Below are positions 59,016 through 64,000 of a stretch of 64,000 bases of DNA, one piece after another; within the stretch, counting starts at the first letter, position 1; each line of letters starts with the position of its first letter. The notes under the pieces were generated by a model. The model had not been told where the DNA came from. It ran no database searches and worked only from the letters and a program-made list of their open reading frames with translations. A program made the translations under genes and the position numbers. This DNA is from Acinetobacter pullicarnis (GTDB taxonomy: Bacteria > Pseudomonadota > Gammaproteobacteria > Pseudomonadales > Moraxellaceae), in NCBI RefSeq assembly GCF_006352475.1, contig NZ_VCMZ01000001.1:3100001-3164000 (forward strand), in the 5' to 3' direction.

Positions 59016-59085
59016 CACAGCACTGTCCTTAAATATCCACATTAAATGCATATAAATGCCTAAATTAGATGACGAAATAAGACTT

Positions 59086-60102
59086 ATGGATCCCAGAAGT
59101 GAAGTTGTAATTCGACAACAATATGCCCTCAAAGGCCGTATCCTCTTGATTAATGCACCAGCAGACGCTTTGGTGAATACATTAAAGCAAGCCGACATTG
59201 AAGCGACGCATTGGACTTGGAATTATCAAGATTATCAGGCGCACCTAAATGCGCAGTATACTTCGACATTCTCGATTGAATTTCCCAAACAAGACGTTGA
59301 CCAAGTAATCATTTACGTACCTAAATCAAAGGCTTTGCTAGATTATATTCTGCATCAAGTGGTTTGCCATCTCCAAGTGGGACAACAAATCTTCTTGGTT
59401 GGTGAGAAAAAAGGGGGGGTGGAACGTGCTGGCAAACAATTACAGCCTTTTGGCAAAACCATAAAGTTAGATAGTGCACGACATTGCCAATTTTGGCAGT
59501 TGACCCTGCAACATACTGAGAAATTAAAACCTCTCAGCGCATGGGTTAAAAATTACTCGATTAAAATACAAGACTTTAGCCTAGAAATATGTGCCTTACC
59601 TGGGGTTTTTAGCCAAGATCATCTCGATATCGGTACCGCTGTGCTTTTGCCGTACCTGACTCAAGTAAAATCAGGTAAACTCGCCGACTTTGGTTGTGGG
59701 GCCGGTGTCATTAGCTGTTGTCTGGCAAAAATGAATGAAAAAAATGTTATTCATGCTTTAGACGTTGATGCCTTTGCATTAAAGTCGACCGAATTAACCT
59801 TTGAGAAAAATGGAATTGAAGCGCATCAATTGCAATTGCATGCCGTTACGGGAATTCAAGATGCCCCGCAGCAGCTTGATGCCTTAATTAGCAATCCACC
59901 GTTTCATCAGGGAATTCATACCAATTACGATGCCAGCGAAACACTTTGCCGACAAGCCAAAATACATTTGAAACGCAAGGGTCAATTCTGGATTGTCGCC
60001 AATCGCTTTTTAAATTATGCAGACTTAATTGAACAGCAATTTGGCGAAACAACAATCAAAGCAGACCAAAACGGCTTTAAGGTGATATATGCCAGTGCAT
60101 AG
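59086..60102 (+). CDS. rsmC: 16S rRNA (guanine-1207-N2)-methyltransferase RsmC-like
   Basis: Start set at the second ATG ([20 protein letters not shown], 338 aa), which is the conserved beginning; the first in-frame ATG is ten codons earlier at 59056 and cannot be excluded, because neither has a clear ribosome site. N-terminal non-catalytic domain, then the SAM-binding motif [16 protein letters not shown] and the catalytic SNPPFHQG (N-P-P-F), as in RsmC/RsmG-type N2-guanine methyltransferases. Methylates 16S rRNA in assembled 30S. Seventy bases after the permease. Confidence 0.82.
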
Positions 60103-60138
60103 TGAAACTTCAAAGGGAATGAGAATGAGGGAACGACA

Positions 60139-61605
60139 ATGAGCGGAACAGACCAACAACTTCAGCGCAAGCTGGGGGCTCGACATTTAAACATGATCGC
60201 CATTGGTGGTTCCATTGGTACTGGTTTATTCCTTGCATCAGGTTCTACCATTGCTCAAGCAGGACCAGGTGGTGCGCTATTGGCTTATGTGCTCATCGGG
60301 ATCATGATTTACTTCCTCATGACCAGCCTCGGCGAACTCGCCACCCACAATCCAACCTCAGGCGCATTTTTTACCTACGGAACTAAATATGTTGAAGAAG
60401 GCTTTGGCTTCGCACTAGGTTGGAACTATTGGTATAACTGGGCAATTACGGTTGCTTTTGAATTGGTTGCCGTACAATTCATCATGAAATTCTGGTTCCC
60501 TGATATTCCTGGCTTTTACTGGAGTGCCATCTTCCTAGCCATCATCTTTGGGATTAATGCCTTAACTGTAAAGGGCTTTGGTGAGACTGAGTTCTTATTC
60601 TCCCTAATCAAAGTGGTTGCGATCTTGGTCTTCATTGTGATTGGCCTATATATGATCGGCACCATTATGCTTGATCCAAATCAAAGCGTACTCAGCAACT
60701 GGACCGTGGGCGATGCACCCTTTGTAGGCGGCCTACAGGCGATGATTGGGGTTGCCATGATTGCCGGATTCTCGTTCCAAGGAACAGAAATGGTTGGTGT
60801 TGCTGCGGGTGAATCTAAAGATCCGAAAAAAACCATTCCACTGGCAATTAAACAAATTTTCTGGCGCATCTTGCTGTTTTATGTGTTGTGTATTTTCATT
60901 ATCGGCACCTTAGTTGCGTATAACGATCCAAACCTACAATTGGCAAGTGAAGGCGACGGTAACATCACCCTATCTCCGTTTACCCTGTTGTATAACAAAG
61001 CTGGTTTTGCCTTTGCAGCCAGTCTAATGAATGCGGTGATTTTATCTGCAATTCTATCTGCGGGTAACTCGGGTATGTACTCGTCAACGCGGATGTTATT
61101 TGATATGGCACGCCAAGGCCGTGCACCAAAATGGTTTGCCAAACTAGATCTACGTGGTGTGCCAATGAACGCACTCTATGCCACTACAGCGGTTGCTGCA
61201 CTTTGTTTTTTAACCACTTTTATTGGCGAACAAGAAGTGTTCTCGTGGTTACTCAACATGTCTGGGATGTGTGGTTTTATCGTTTGGCTTGGGATTGCGA
61301 TTTCACATTATCGTTTCCGTAAAGGCTATATTGCACAAGGTAATAAACTGTCTGATTTGGCCTATAAAGCCAAGTTCTTCCCCTTTGCCCCTTGGTTTGC
61401 ATTTATTCTGTGTTCGATCATTATTTTGGGCCAGAACTACGAAGCATTGATTGGCGGGAAAATTAATTGGATCGGTTTATTGTCGACTTACATTTCTATT
61501 CCATTATTCCTAGCCATTTGGCTCGGCTATAAATGGAAGCACAAAACCAAATTGGTTCCATACAAGGATATGGATGTGCAACCGATGAATCCAGACACTC
61601 AATAA
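60139..61605 (+). CDS. lysP: Amino acid permease, LysP-like (lysine-specific APC family)
   Basis: 488 residues with 12 TM segments. The amino acid permease signature is in GARHLNMIAIGGSIGTGLFLASG (TM1) and STRMLFDMARQGRAPKWFAK after TM8, and LGWNYWYNWAITVAFELVA resembles LysP. It probably imports lysine with protons; other basic amino acids are possible. A purine-rich stretch (GAATGAGGGAAC) lies before the ATG. Terminator at 61645-61673. Confidence 0.83.
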   Translation: MSGTDQQLQRKLGARHLNMIAIGGSIGTGLFLASGSTIAQAGPGGALLAYVLIGIMIYFLMTSLGELATHNPTSGAFFTYGTKYVEEGFGFALGWNYWYNWAITVAFELVAVQFIMKFWFPDIPGFYWSAIFLAIIFGINALTVKGFGETEFLFSLIKVVAILVFIVIGLYMIGTIMLDPNQSVLSNWTVGDAPFVGGLQAMIGVAMIAGFSFQGTEMVGVAAGESKDPKKTIPLAIKQIFWRILLFYVLCIFIIGTLVAYNDPNLQLASEGDGNITLSPFTLLYNKAGFAFAASLMNAVILSAILSAGNSGMYSSTRMLFDMARQGRAPKWFAKLDLRGVPMNALYATTAVAALCFLTTFIGEQEVFSWLLNMSGMCGFIVWLGIAISHYRFRKGYIAQGNKLSDLAYKAKFFPFAPWFAFILCSIIILGQNYEALIGGKINWIGLLSTYISIPLFLAIWLGYKWKHKTKLVPYKDMDVQPMNPDTQ

Positions 61606-61644
61606 GTCGTTAAGTACTGTTTTAAATCAACGTACTTAAACCAA

Positions 61645-61673
61645 TTAAACCCCTCCACGACAGAGGGGTTTAA
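61645..61673 (+). terminator. Rho-independent terminator of lysP
   Basis: Perfect 11-bp stem TTAAACCCCTC / GAGGGGTTTAA with a 7-base loop, followed by TGTTTTT. It separates lysP from the rtcB leader. Confidence 0.8.
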
Positions 61674-61739
61674 TGTTTTTAAACACAGATAAAACTGACA
61701 TGTGATACAACTCAATTTTATCTCATAAAAAATTAATGC

Positions 61740-61767
61740 TTGATTAATAATATTTCCGCTCTATAAT
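61740..61767 (+). promoter_or_regulatory. Sigma-70 promoter of the rtcB leader
   Basis: TTGATT (61740-61745), 16-base spacer, perfect TATAAT (61762-61767). Start near 61774 would give a leader of about 270 bases before rtcB. Confidence 0.7.
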
Positions 61768-61825
61768 TTGCTCCAATTCACTGAACCCAGTGCAATACAC
61801 CAGATTTAAATTTTAGGAGGACGTC

Positions 61826-61855
61826 ATGCTGTTATTGGAAATCAACAAATATTAA
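61826..61855 (+). CDS. Leader peptide MLLLEINKY of the rtcB transcript
   Basis: Nine codons plus TAA. The Shine-Dalgarno AGGAGG (61815-61820) is perfect and five bases before the ATG, which is far stronger than before most genes here. The peptide has three consecutive leucines written with three different codons (CTG, TTA, TTG), then Glu, Ile, Asn, Lys, Tyr. The TAA is the first three bases of the 5' arm of a downstream hairpin, so the ribosome position can control RNA folding. Confidence 0.6.
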   Translation: MLLLEINKY

Positions 61856-61942
61856 ATTAAGCAGACGTGAACTTACGGACACTCGCTTAATTTAAAGTGT
61901 CCGAATGCCTCAGATTAAACCTAGCATTCGCTAGGTTTTTTT
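61853..61942 (+). promoter_or_regulatory. Candidate transcription attenuator upstream of rtcB
   Basis: Four alternative stems are seen. Stem A: TAAATTAAGC (61853-61862) with GCTTAATTTA (61885-61894), perfect 10 bp. Stem B: CGGACACT (61876-61883) with AGTGTCCG (61896-61903), perfect 8 bp and incompatible with A. Antiterminator: CGAATGC (61902-61908) with GCATTCG (61924-61930), perfect 7 bp and incompatible with B at two bases. Terminator: AAACCTAGC (61917-61925) with GCTAGGTTT (61930-61938), then a T-run to 61942. This is the four-part order of leader-peptide attenuators. Confidence 0.6.
61917..61942 (+). terminator. Rho-independent (attenuator) terminator in the rtcB leader
   Basis: Perfect 9-bp stem with a 4-base loop ATTC and seven T. 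It is 100 bases upstream of rtcB and downstream of the leader ORF. Confidence 0.75.
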
Positions 61943-62042
61943 ATGTCTCAATTTTGATGACAGCGCAAAAGATCAATTCGGGCACCCCCAAAAACCTGCG
62001 GAGTTAACGCAGCATTAAAGAAAACTTGCTTAGAGAAAAATA

Positions 62043-63248
62043 ATGGGCATACAAATGATTTTGAACGCCAAAGCTGAATATGGCGTTCCAGTAAAAATAT
62101 ATACGCGCGACATAGATGAAGAAAGCTTAACCCAACTACGAAAAATGGCACAATTACAGTTTATTCACTCACATATTGCGGTTATGCCTGATGTACATTT
62201 GGGCAAAGGTGCGACAGTTGGCAGTGTGATTCCAACCAAAAATGCAATTATTCCTGCAGCAGTTGGCGTCGATATTGGTTGTGGTATGAATGCATTACGC
62301 TTGAGCTTAAAGGCAGCACAACTGCCTGACAATCTCAGTAAGCTACGCAATGCGATTGAGCGTAAAGTTCCAGTTGGCTTTGAAGCACATAAGCAGATCA
62401 AAGCCAAGGCGTCCACCCTGTCGCCACTAGAACAACGCTTAAAACAAATTACCATCAAGCATCCTGGTTTAACCCGTCGGCTAAAACATTTTGATTCCAC
62501 TTGGCAAAAACAATTGGGCACGCTCGGTGGGGGGAACCACTTTATTGAACTGTGTTTGGATGAAAATCAAGATGTTTGGGTGATGTTGCACTCGGGAAGC
62601 CGTGGTCTAGGAAATGTCATTGGCAGCTATTTTATTGAACGTGCCAAAAAAGAAGCACAACATCGCTTTGGACATGTCCCAGACAAAGACTTGTCGTACT
62701 TTGCAGAAGGTTCGGCTAACTTTGATGACTATGTTGAAGCGGTAGAATGGGCCCAAGAATACGCTTATGAAAATCGACGTGAAATGATGCGCCTGATTTT
62801 AGAAGCCATTCGCCCACTCCTGCCCAGCTTTCAAATGACCAAGGAAGCGATTAACTGTCATCACAACTATGTACAAAAAGAATTGCACTTTGGTGAAGAG
62901 GTCTTTGTGACACGCAAAGGTGCAATTCGTGCGGGCTTAGATGAATATGGCATCATCCCAGGTTCAATGGGTGCACAATCCTTTATTGTGAAAGGCAAAG
63001 GCAATCCCGATTCATTTTGCTCTTGTTCACATGGTGCAGGTCGTAAAATGAGCCGTAGTAAAGCCAAACGTTTATTTAGCCAACAAGACTTAATTGAACA
63101 AACCCAAGGGGTTGAATGTCGCAAAGACAAGGCTGTGGTTGATGAAATTCCGAGTGCTTATAAGAATATTCATGAGGTAATGGCCAATCAAGCAGACTTA
63201 ATCGACGTAGTACATACCTTAAAACAAGTGCTGTGTATTAAAGGCTAA
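62043..63248 (+). CDS. rtcB: RNA-splicing ligase RtcB
   Basis: 401 residues. PDVHLGKGATVGSVIPT, VGVDIGCGMNALRL (Asp and Cys metal ligands), LGGGNHFIELC, MLHSGSRGLGN and CSHGAGRKMSRSKAK (with the guanylylated His) are all intact. RtcB joins RNA 3'-phosphate or 2',3'-cyclic-phosphate ends to 5'-OH ends with GTP and manganese, so it can reseal tRNAs or rRNA cut by toxin nucleases. The usual E. coli partner rtcA and sigma-54 activator rtcR are not next to it. The leader before it looks like an attenuator. GAGA precedes the ATG; an ATG four codons later is also possible. Confidence 0.92.
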   Translation: MGIQMILNAKAEYGVPVKIYTRDIDEESLTQLRKMAQLQFIHSHIAVMPDVHLGKGATVGSVIPTKNAIIPAAVGVDIGCGMNALRLSLKAAQLPDNLSKLRNAIERKVPVGFEAHKQIKAKASTLSPLEQRLKQITIKHPGLTRRLKHFDSTWQKQLGTLGGGNHFIELCLDENQDVWVMLHSGSRGLGNVIGSYFIERAKKEAQHRFGHVPDKDLSYFAEGSANFDDYVEAVEWAQEYAYENRREMMRLILEAIRPLLPSFQMTKEAINCHHNYVQKELHFGEEVFVTRKGAIRAGLDEYGIIPGSMGAQSFIVKGKGNPDSFCSCSHGAGRKMSRSKAKRLFSQQDLIEQTQGVECRKDKAVVDEIPSAYKNIHEVMANQADLIDVVHTLKQVLCIKG

Positions 63249-63508: not shown

Positions 63509-64000
63509 TTAACGCGGTTGAGCAAGTACAGTACGGCTACCAGAAATCGTCGCGAATACACGACGGTTCATAGCACGACCTTCTTTAGTGTTGTTGTCAG
63601 CAATCGGTTGATCCCAAGCAAAGCCTTGAGTAGACAAACGAGAAGCATCGATGTTGTATTCATTTACAAGTGCAGATTTAACAGAGTTAGCACGAGCCAA
63701 AGATAAACGTTGGTTTAACTGAAGTGGACCAGTGTTATCTGTGTGACCGTCAATGCGAGCAGTCGCATTCGGGTAATCGTTAAGTTGCTCAGCAACTTTA
63801 GCGATTTCTGGCTTGTATTGATCTTTGATGTTTGATTTGTTGGTATCAAAGAACACACGAAGTTCCATGTTCAATGCTTCAGTCAATTCTACTGGCGCTG
63901 GTTGAACAACAGGAGCGATTGGAGCAACTGGCTCAACAACTACTACTGGAGCAACAGGTTTCAAGTGACCACCAAGAACAACGTTAAGACCAGCAAGTGC
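63509..64000 (-). CDS. ompA: OmpA-family outer membrane protein (C-terminal part; 5' end outside the window)
   Basis: 164 codons are inside the window and the frame is open to the right edge, so the N-terminal beta-barrel lies beyond it. A Pro/Val-rich linker ([14 protein letters not shown]) joins to a peptidoglycan-binding OmpA_C domain: [41 protein letters not shown] and the C-terminal [10 protein letters not shown]. The Asp/Arg pair that holds diaminopimelate is in the DGHTDN and LSLARA parts. The tail SRTVLAQPR is as in Acinetobacter OmpA. Confidence 0.92.

Follow-up and report, generated by a model that had tools for sequence, protein, structure and literature searches.

A leader with a short open reading frame and competing helices upstream of rtcB in Acinetobacter: a probable ribosome-sensing attenuator homologous to AbsR28

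How is the RNA ligase gene rtcB of Acinetobacter pullicarnis held off, and what releases it? The question is raised by the sequence that precedes rtcB in a stretch of 64,000 nucleotides, the whole of which is termed here the window. E. coli rtcBA has the activator protein RtcR and a sigma-54 promoter; the window has a sigma-70-type promoter and what is probably an RNA switch, and both arrangements would keep rtcB off until stress. Leader-peptide attenuation as such is old, and in trp-type attenuators the position of the ribosome sets a logic of 1:2, 2:3 and 3:4 pairing. The original prediction was of an attenuator before rtcB with competing helices A and B, an antiterminator and a terminator, responding to a ribosome held at Leu or Glu codons. 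Our analysis points to a ribosome-sensing transcription attenuator that holds rtcB off during normal translation, with a probability of about 0.8. Layout, conservation, covariation and spacing were observed here, and induction of rtcB by tetracycline-class drugs has been published by others; on this evidence the competing helices stand, and the sensing of Leu or Glu is given up.

A rereading of the window placed the promoter, the AGGAGG, the MLLLEINKY open reading frame (ORF), A, B, the antiterminator and the terminator exactly where they had been predicted, and added one helix, 1:2. The features are as follows.

61740..61767, plus strand: sigma-70-type promoter, TTGATT (61740-61745), spacer of 16, TATAAT (61762-61767); 10 of 12 consensus bases
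61802..61952, plus strand: match to RF02606 (AbsR28), model positions 1-180; 48.6 bits
61815..61820, plus strand: Shine-Dalgarno sequence AGGAGG of the leader ORF; read from the sequence
61826..61855, plus strand: leader ORF MLLLEINKY, nine codons, stop TAA; all 78 Acinetobacter genomes with a close rtcB have an ORF with Shine-Dalgarno sequence here
61821..61830, plus strand: segment 1 (right 3′ of the Shine-Dalgarno sequence, start codon, codon 2), partner of segment 2; swap test 0/5000, two-sided changes in 3 of 10 pairs
61860..61868, plus strand: segment 2, the 3′ arm of helix 1:2; swap test and two-sided changes
61853..61862, plus strand: 5′ arm of helix A, containing the leader stop codon and overlapping segment 2; swap test and alignment
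61885..61894, plus strand: 3′ arm of helix A, which is the loop of hairpin B; swap test and alignment
61876..61883, plus strand: 5′ arm of helix B (segment 3); swap test and alignment
61896..61903, plus strand: 3′ arm of helix B (segment 4); swap test and alignment
61902..61908, plus strand: 5′ arm of the antiterminator, CGAATGC; 98.8% of cells paired in 24 leaders, covaries in other genera
61924..61930, plus strand: 3′ arm of the antiterminator, GCATTCG, in the terminator loop and inner stem (segment 5); evidence as for the 5′ arm
61917..61943, plus strand: intrinsic terminator with U-tract (stem 61917-61938, then T); terminator scan and alignment
62043..63248, plus strand: rtcB, RNA ligase; PF01139, E 8.5e-129

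Helix 1:2 pairs 61821-61825 and 61827-61830 with 61860-61868, and thus joins the region of the start codon, just after the Shine-Dalgarno sequence, to a segment 3′ of the leader stop. Terminator-like sites number six in 61400-62400 (0.9 expected). The window promoter by itself shows no excess over chance (one site vs 3.5 expected in shuffles); among the 76 related leaders with enough upstream sequence, a promoter with at least 10 of 12 consensus bases is present in 55, vs 46 of 1580 mononucleotide shuffles. Formation of A and B together as a single pseudoknot is disfavoured by the single-nucleotide connector in the window and, by eye, by the layout in G215, a leader of another Moraxellaceae genus.

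Several neighbouring features were also seen. Upstream, window positions 59056-61605 encode a methyltransferase with MTS and MTS_N domains and an amino acid permease, the latter with its own terminator at 61644-61674; an OmpA-family protein is encoded on the opposite strand at 63509-64000. Positions 61801-61948 give a weak full-length match to the Staphylococcus sRNA sau-41 (24.8 bits, cut-off 80). This sRNA too carries an AGGAGG and a 3′ hairpin, and the resemblance is likely due to chance.

For comparison, 175 genomes of the genus were searched. RtcB was found at E <= 1e-30 in 80, and a close orthologue (82-100% identity) in 78; G020 and G157 were set aside, the sole copy there being 61-62% identical. 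The rtcB of G119 is in two pieces, and the RtcB match of G033 begins at residue 12. A Shine-Dalgarno sequence and short ORF precede the close rtcB in all 78 genomes, which bears out the expected conservation of the leader ORF in relatives. With one leader from another genus (L019) the set comprises 79, of which 78 were tallied for ORF length: 67 have nine codons, six have 10, two have seven, and there are single ORFs of eight, 11 (L019) and 17 (G148) codons. The leader outside this tally, that of G047, was located by hand and has an ORF of eight codons. When sequence 3′ of codon 2 was shuffled, an ORF of 7-12 codons was expected in 5.2 of 21 representatives (G148, with its 17 codons, being left out); it is present in all 21.

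The helices were assessed by a swap test, in which native partners are compared with partners exchanged among 22 representatives less than 85% alike, over 5000 permutations and with relatedness ignored. For 1:2, A and B native pairing was better in all permutations (0/5000 as good). For the antiterminator it was no better than the swaps among these representatives (5000/5000 as good), because the antiterminator is nearly invariant. An alignment of 24 leaders gives a similar picture. Helices 1:2 and B with the terminator have 92.7% of cells paired vs 86.2% in shuffled alignments (0/500), 47 two-sided cells vs 15.6 (0/500) and eight pairs with two-sided changes vs 5.0 (2/500); extra pair types are not above shuffles (269/500), and pairing falls to 26-35% when the partner is slid. 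Helix A has 70.3% of cells paired vs 58.7% (0/500) and 31 two-sided cells vs 12.9 (0/500), with neither pairs with two-sided changes (252/500) nor pair types (82/500) raised over shuffles. The antiterminator, 98.8% paired, has only G-U changes, i.e. no covariation in Acinetobacter. The predicted compensatory changes are therefore found in A and B, and also in 1:2; those of the antiterminator come only from other genera. Mutually exclusive helices that end in a terminator or an antiterminator, as in an attenuator, are what the leader contains.

The influence of a ribosome was modelled by imposing its footprint on the leader folded as far as the terminator loop. For the window, the model predicts 12.7-14.0 pairs in helix A with the P site on codons 1-5, 0.1-0.0 pairs from codon 6 on, and 2.9 with no ribosome. 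Averaged over the 79 leaders, A falls from 5.05 pairs at codon 1 to 2.54 at codon 5 and to 0.00 at the stop; without a ribosome it has 0.04. In the same folds B drops from 0.82 to 0.42, and the antiterminator barely shifts (none 0.77, codon 1 0.81, stop 0.64). With other segment borders, 20 Acinetobacter leaders have 7.0 antiterminator pairs with the ribosome at the start, 6.2 with none and 6.0 at the last codon (up in 11, down in one); the corresponding values for 22 leaders of other genera are 8.6, 5.4 and 2.7 (up in 15, down in one). A measure of 2:3 pairing switches in Acinetobacter (8.5 at the start vs 1.9 and 1.8). This crude measure shows no switch in the other genera (start 5.7, none 6.0, last codon 7.1), where the fixed borders may mix 2:3 with 3:4. 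Ribosome position in the model has a clear effect on A and B and a weak one on the antiterminator in Acinetobacter, so that the antiterminator step inside this genus is weakly supported. The worst fit to the model is G006, a leader of the A. baumannii type in which helix A is never predicted; in L042 all ribosome states give the same result. Full-length folds of four leaders have the terminator every time, and the choice between on and off must therefore be made during transcription.

The switch may work as follows. Most transcripts from a constitutive-type promoter would stop at the terminator, and the short RNA so formed would, in A. baumannii, be the one published as AbsR28. With no ribosome, 1:2, 3:4 (helix B) and the terminator would form and rtcB would be off; because helix 1:2 exists, an untranslated leader is likewise predicted to terminate. 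A ribosome that reaches the stop would cover segment 2, and 3:4 and the terminator would again form. A ribosome arrested within roughly the first five codons would cover segment 1 and leave segment 2 free, so that 2:3 (helix A) forms; 3:4 would then be blocked, the antiterminator 4:5 would form, and rtcB would be transcribed. The signal would be early stalled translation in general, as with tetracycline-class drugs, and no single amino acid; perhaps damaged tRNA or ribosomes also serve. We infer the order of folding and the natural signal, and that the drugs act by way of the leader.

The two genes that tigecycline induces most in A. baumannii, 252-fold, are rtcB and its downstream neighbour; that study considers either a link to a toxin-antitoxin system or blockage of tRNA, and refers to an earlier data set pointing the same way (PMC7652931). 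Minocycline at half the MIC raises rtcB 2.6-fold (PMC9741440). Two other reports are outside the attenuator explanation: a trmB study lists an RtcB family protein at 0.40 (PMC10653896), and rtcB_2 of Acinetobacter sp. Tol 5 is raised by severe desiccation (PMC13130816). This raises the question of whether the attenuator is real and the drug induction nonetheless indirect, through mRNA stability, another regulator or toxin activation. The toxin-antitoxin link discussed for tigecycline (PMC7652931) speaks for such a route, as does the fact that we infer the tie of leader to induction. We consider it unlikely, since the gene after rtcB rises alongside, as read-through would give, and a second study with the same drug class finds rtcB increased.

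The gene after rtcB in the A. baumannii type (L082) starts within a few bases of its 3′ end and encodes a small basic protein; this is the position given for AB57_3343, the gene induced together with rtcB by tigecycline. The protein has 53-56 amino acids and the consensus RNxVALSPLLHKGGxHExEKPxAxHRR (L082:2906-3061, L167, L168, L169, L171, L172, L201). It has no match in Pfam, NCBIfam or PDB and none in the window at E <0.05, and its homologues are without name or hypothetical.

How closely is the leader bound to rtcB? In the A. baumannii group rtcB starts 32-33 nt after the end of the U-tract (over 78 leaders the median is 43 nt and the largest distance 277), which leaves hardly any space for a separate rtcB promoter. 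The distance from terminator to rtcB in the window is about 100 nt; there the argument is weaker, and a second promoter fits by space. A covariance model built from 24 leaders, R1, matches 89 of the 175 genomes, at a single place each. Eighty-four matches score >60 bits, and 77 of these lie, as judged by eye, directly 5′ of a close rtcB; the 78th such genome, G148, scores 38.9. The remaining seven strong matches are at sites where rtcB is missing or in scraps (G007, G030, G038, G084, G100, G153 and G157), and these operon remnants account for every leader among the 97 genomes without a close rtcB. The gene for the small basic protein follows the leader in six of the seven (directly in G084, G100 and G153), and in G157 rtcB is reduced to its last 16 codons. 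The leader is thus not kept independently of the neighbouring gene, as a trans-acting sRNA would be.

Two further observations on these genomes may be added. In G007, G030, G038 and G157, where rtcB has gone or decayed, the leader stays, with the small gene in three of the four. A second RtcB, 56-62% identical, is common in Acinetobacter and is without such a leader (L173-L177); the RtcB of the window is up to 92% identical to that of Acinetobacter relatives.

The Rfam family RF02606, AbsR28, aligns full length to the window leader with 48.6 bits (E 1.4e-9 for the whole genome of 4.1 Mb in three contigs, at a single place). The gathering cut-off of 50 is missed by 1.4 bits here and is passed in 72 of the 175 genomes. 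Helices 1:2, 3:4 and the terminator are present in the Rfam structure also. On the evidence of these alignments the leader is a homologue of AbsR28, an RNA at the same place 5′ of rtcB, yet published as a trans-acting sRNA. AbsR28 was described in A. baumannii as an RNA of about 180 nt, transcribed from the interval between A1S_2838 and A1S_2839, with similar levels across the growth phases examined (PMC3976366), which is the expectation for a constitutive terminated leader; it has also been observed in AB5075 (PMC5320573) and ATCC 17978 (PMC5538643). The published probe (PMC3976366) agrees by eye with the G006 leader, where rtcB begins 17 nt after the end of the RF02606 match; G006 would then be of the A. 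baumannii type and A1S_2839 would be rtcB. In A. baylyi, five of six MGD6 clones evolved in LB had base changes at the AbsR28 homologue or close to it (PMC11426457), and if the leader is an attenuator these may alter rtcB expression. The literature searched, mostly papers open without subscription, contained no paper with AbsR28 and rtcB together, and neither rtcB nor a leader ORF was found as a term in the AbsR28 papers searched.

Is AbsR28 instead a stand-alone trans-acting sRNA with its own terminator, acting on tssM with Mn2+ and Hfq, with rtcB controlled separately? It is reported to be an Mn2+-dependent sRNA that represses type VI secretion via tssM: type VI secretion genes respond to both its deletion and its over-expression, Mn2+ is bound with a KD of about 6 uM, and A1S_2839 reportedly shows no polar effect when absR28 is deleted (PMC11796373). 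A link between Hfq, AbsR28 and tssM is cited as well (PMC12455925). The attenuator predicts a rise of A1S_2839 if the deletion comprises leader and terminator, and a fall if the promoter is removed too. We hold a purely separate sRNA to be improbable. It needs neither a translated ORF nor helices that compete with the terminator, it does not sit well with the 32-33 nt that separate U-tract and rtcB in the A. baumannii group, and wherever a close rtcB is present the RNA precedes it (78 of 78 genomes), with just seven of the 97 others having the RNA, at operon remnants. Mn2+ binding and the effects on tssM are not accounted for by an attenuator; the terminated leader may act in trans too, and the two roles could exist side by side.

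A Mn2+-responsive riboswitch for rtcB is very improbable. AbsR28 is reported to bind Mn2+ and to change structure (PMC11796373), but no known Mn2+ riboswitch family in Rfam matched 61700-62042 up to E 10. The riboswitch would leave the conserved ORF and its pairing unexplained, and the drug induction has no obvious link to Mn2+. The rtcB product itself needs Mn2+.

If the leader is a ribosome-sensing attenuator, what does its ORF encode? The 79 leaders specify 54 distinct peptides, in which Met is the sole residue common to all, and ORF pairs only 1-2 nt apart show 36 nonsynonymous vs 16 synonymous changes. Since the peptides vary and the ORF length is kept, selection would be on translation and there would be no amino-acid code; as far as sequence comparison can tell, the leader is kept for an ORF of given length, and the peptide is free. 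The peptides have no conserved run of regulatory codons of the kind that marks an amino-acid-specific attenuator. A classical attenuator reading charged tRNA-Leu or tRNA-Glu, suggested by the three Leu codons of the window ORF and by Leu in 49 of the 54 Acinetobacter peptides, can be dismissed as most improbable, given these substitutions, the five peptides without Leu and the absence of Leu from some peptides of other genera (e.g. MVKDGIFA, MTHSASQDFKQR and MVQRNEVVVTG); with it falls the proposed sensing of Leu or Glu.

The layout is also found outside Acinetobacter. Among 20 upstream regions of other Moraxellaceae, inspected by eye, eight have it with other sequences (G215, G197, G183, G199, G185, G234, G227 and G186), 11 do not, and G178 is ambiguous; Psychrobacter loci L020-L024 are without it. 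A wider set of 99 loci was reduced to 95 by dropping those with <200 nt upstream (L037, L049, L178 and L218). An ORF of 7-14 codons with a Shine-Dalgarno sequence, followed by a terminator, occurs at 20 of 43 loci whose RtcB is at least 61% identical to that of the window, and at none of the 52 loci below 61%, a boundary that was picked after the table had been seen. A terminator alone is present at 32 of 43 vs seven of 52. The high bin includes one Acinetobacter (L025), so that the count outside the genus is 19 of 42; the low bin includes L063, with a faulty upstream slice, and five second Acinetobacter RtcB copies (L173-L177). Records of Thiotrichaceae, Kangiellaceae and Hahella are among the named carriers.

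Swap tests with 22 leaders of other genera and the window, again ignoring relatedness and without L044 (a near-duplicate of L039), gave 0/5000 for 1:2, 2:3 and 4:5. Here the antiterminator arms differ on both sides, e.g. GTCAG/CTGAC (L221, L027) and GCCAG/CTGGC (L223); G215 and G185 have CGAATGC/GCATTCG. In L221, L219, L027 and L039 the antiterminator extends through the 3′ arm of B into the terminator loop. Taken locus by locus, 1:2 reaches p <= 0.01 in shuffles at just six of 17 distant loci, and in L026 and L028 its pairing is no better than swaps. R1, run over 390 genomes of the order, gave a match at E <= 0.01 in 10, including the window genome and G084; the other eight (L202-L209) are terminator-like and have no RtcB match. 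The silence of R1 says little, because it found none of the divergent leaders seen otherwise. From these comparisons, an attenuator layout without an amino-acid code seems to recur with different sequences in several genera.

In the original prediction a ribosome-sensing attenuator on rtcB was not recognised as a described system. This must be qualified, as there is a precedent, and as the RNA is homologous to AbsR28; rtcB itself as the target is new. In P. aeruginosa, PA5471.1 precedes PA5471 (armZ) and acts by leader-peptide transcription attenuation, with induction by ribosome-targeting drugs and stalling near codon 3, and armZ itself is reported to encode an RtcB-like RNA ligase (PMC12057347, PMC13041342). 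A leader peptide, attenuation and induction by ribosome-targeting drugs are common to that system and to our reading of the window. However, ArmZ is an anti-repressor of MexZ, and the Gln3 and Phe4 codons matter in PA5471.1. The window RtcB scores 187 bits against NF007153 (cut-off 407) and by that model is not of the armZ/PRK09588 type. A search of the literature for leader-peptide attenuation or ribosome stalling at rtcB, in which few subscription papers were covered, found only a review on PA5471.1-armZ.

As in trp-type attenuators, the window leader would use the 1:2, 2:3 and 3:4 logic with the ribosome position deciding. Two things set it apart. There is no amino-acid code, and a relay step is added: the terminator is a hairpin separate from 3:4, which would instead govern the terminator's competitor, the antiterminator 4:5. 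The new elements are a target that is itself a clade of the repair ligase, a code-free leader, the relay by which 3:4 would control the antiterminator, the occurrence in several genera and the connection with AbsR28.

A broader scheme can be put forward tentatively, with odds somewhat below even. Broken tRNAs or damaged ribosomes would delay translation of the first codons in a codon-neutral leader, and the relay of helices would release rtcB; this would apply to one rtcB clade in several proteobacterial families, with AbsR28 as the terminated product in A. baumannii. If true, RNA repair would be coupled to a sensor of its own substrates, and RtcB would gain a direct input, the state of translation. 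There would also be a simple cause for the 252-fold induction by tigecycline, left open by its authors (PMC7652931). A published sRNA tied to type VI secretion would be, at least also, an mRNA leader, and the absR28 phenotypes would thus need to be checked for effects on rtcB.
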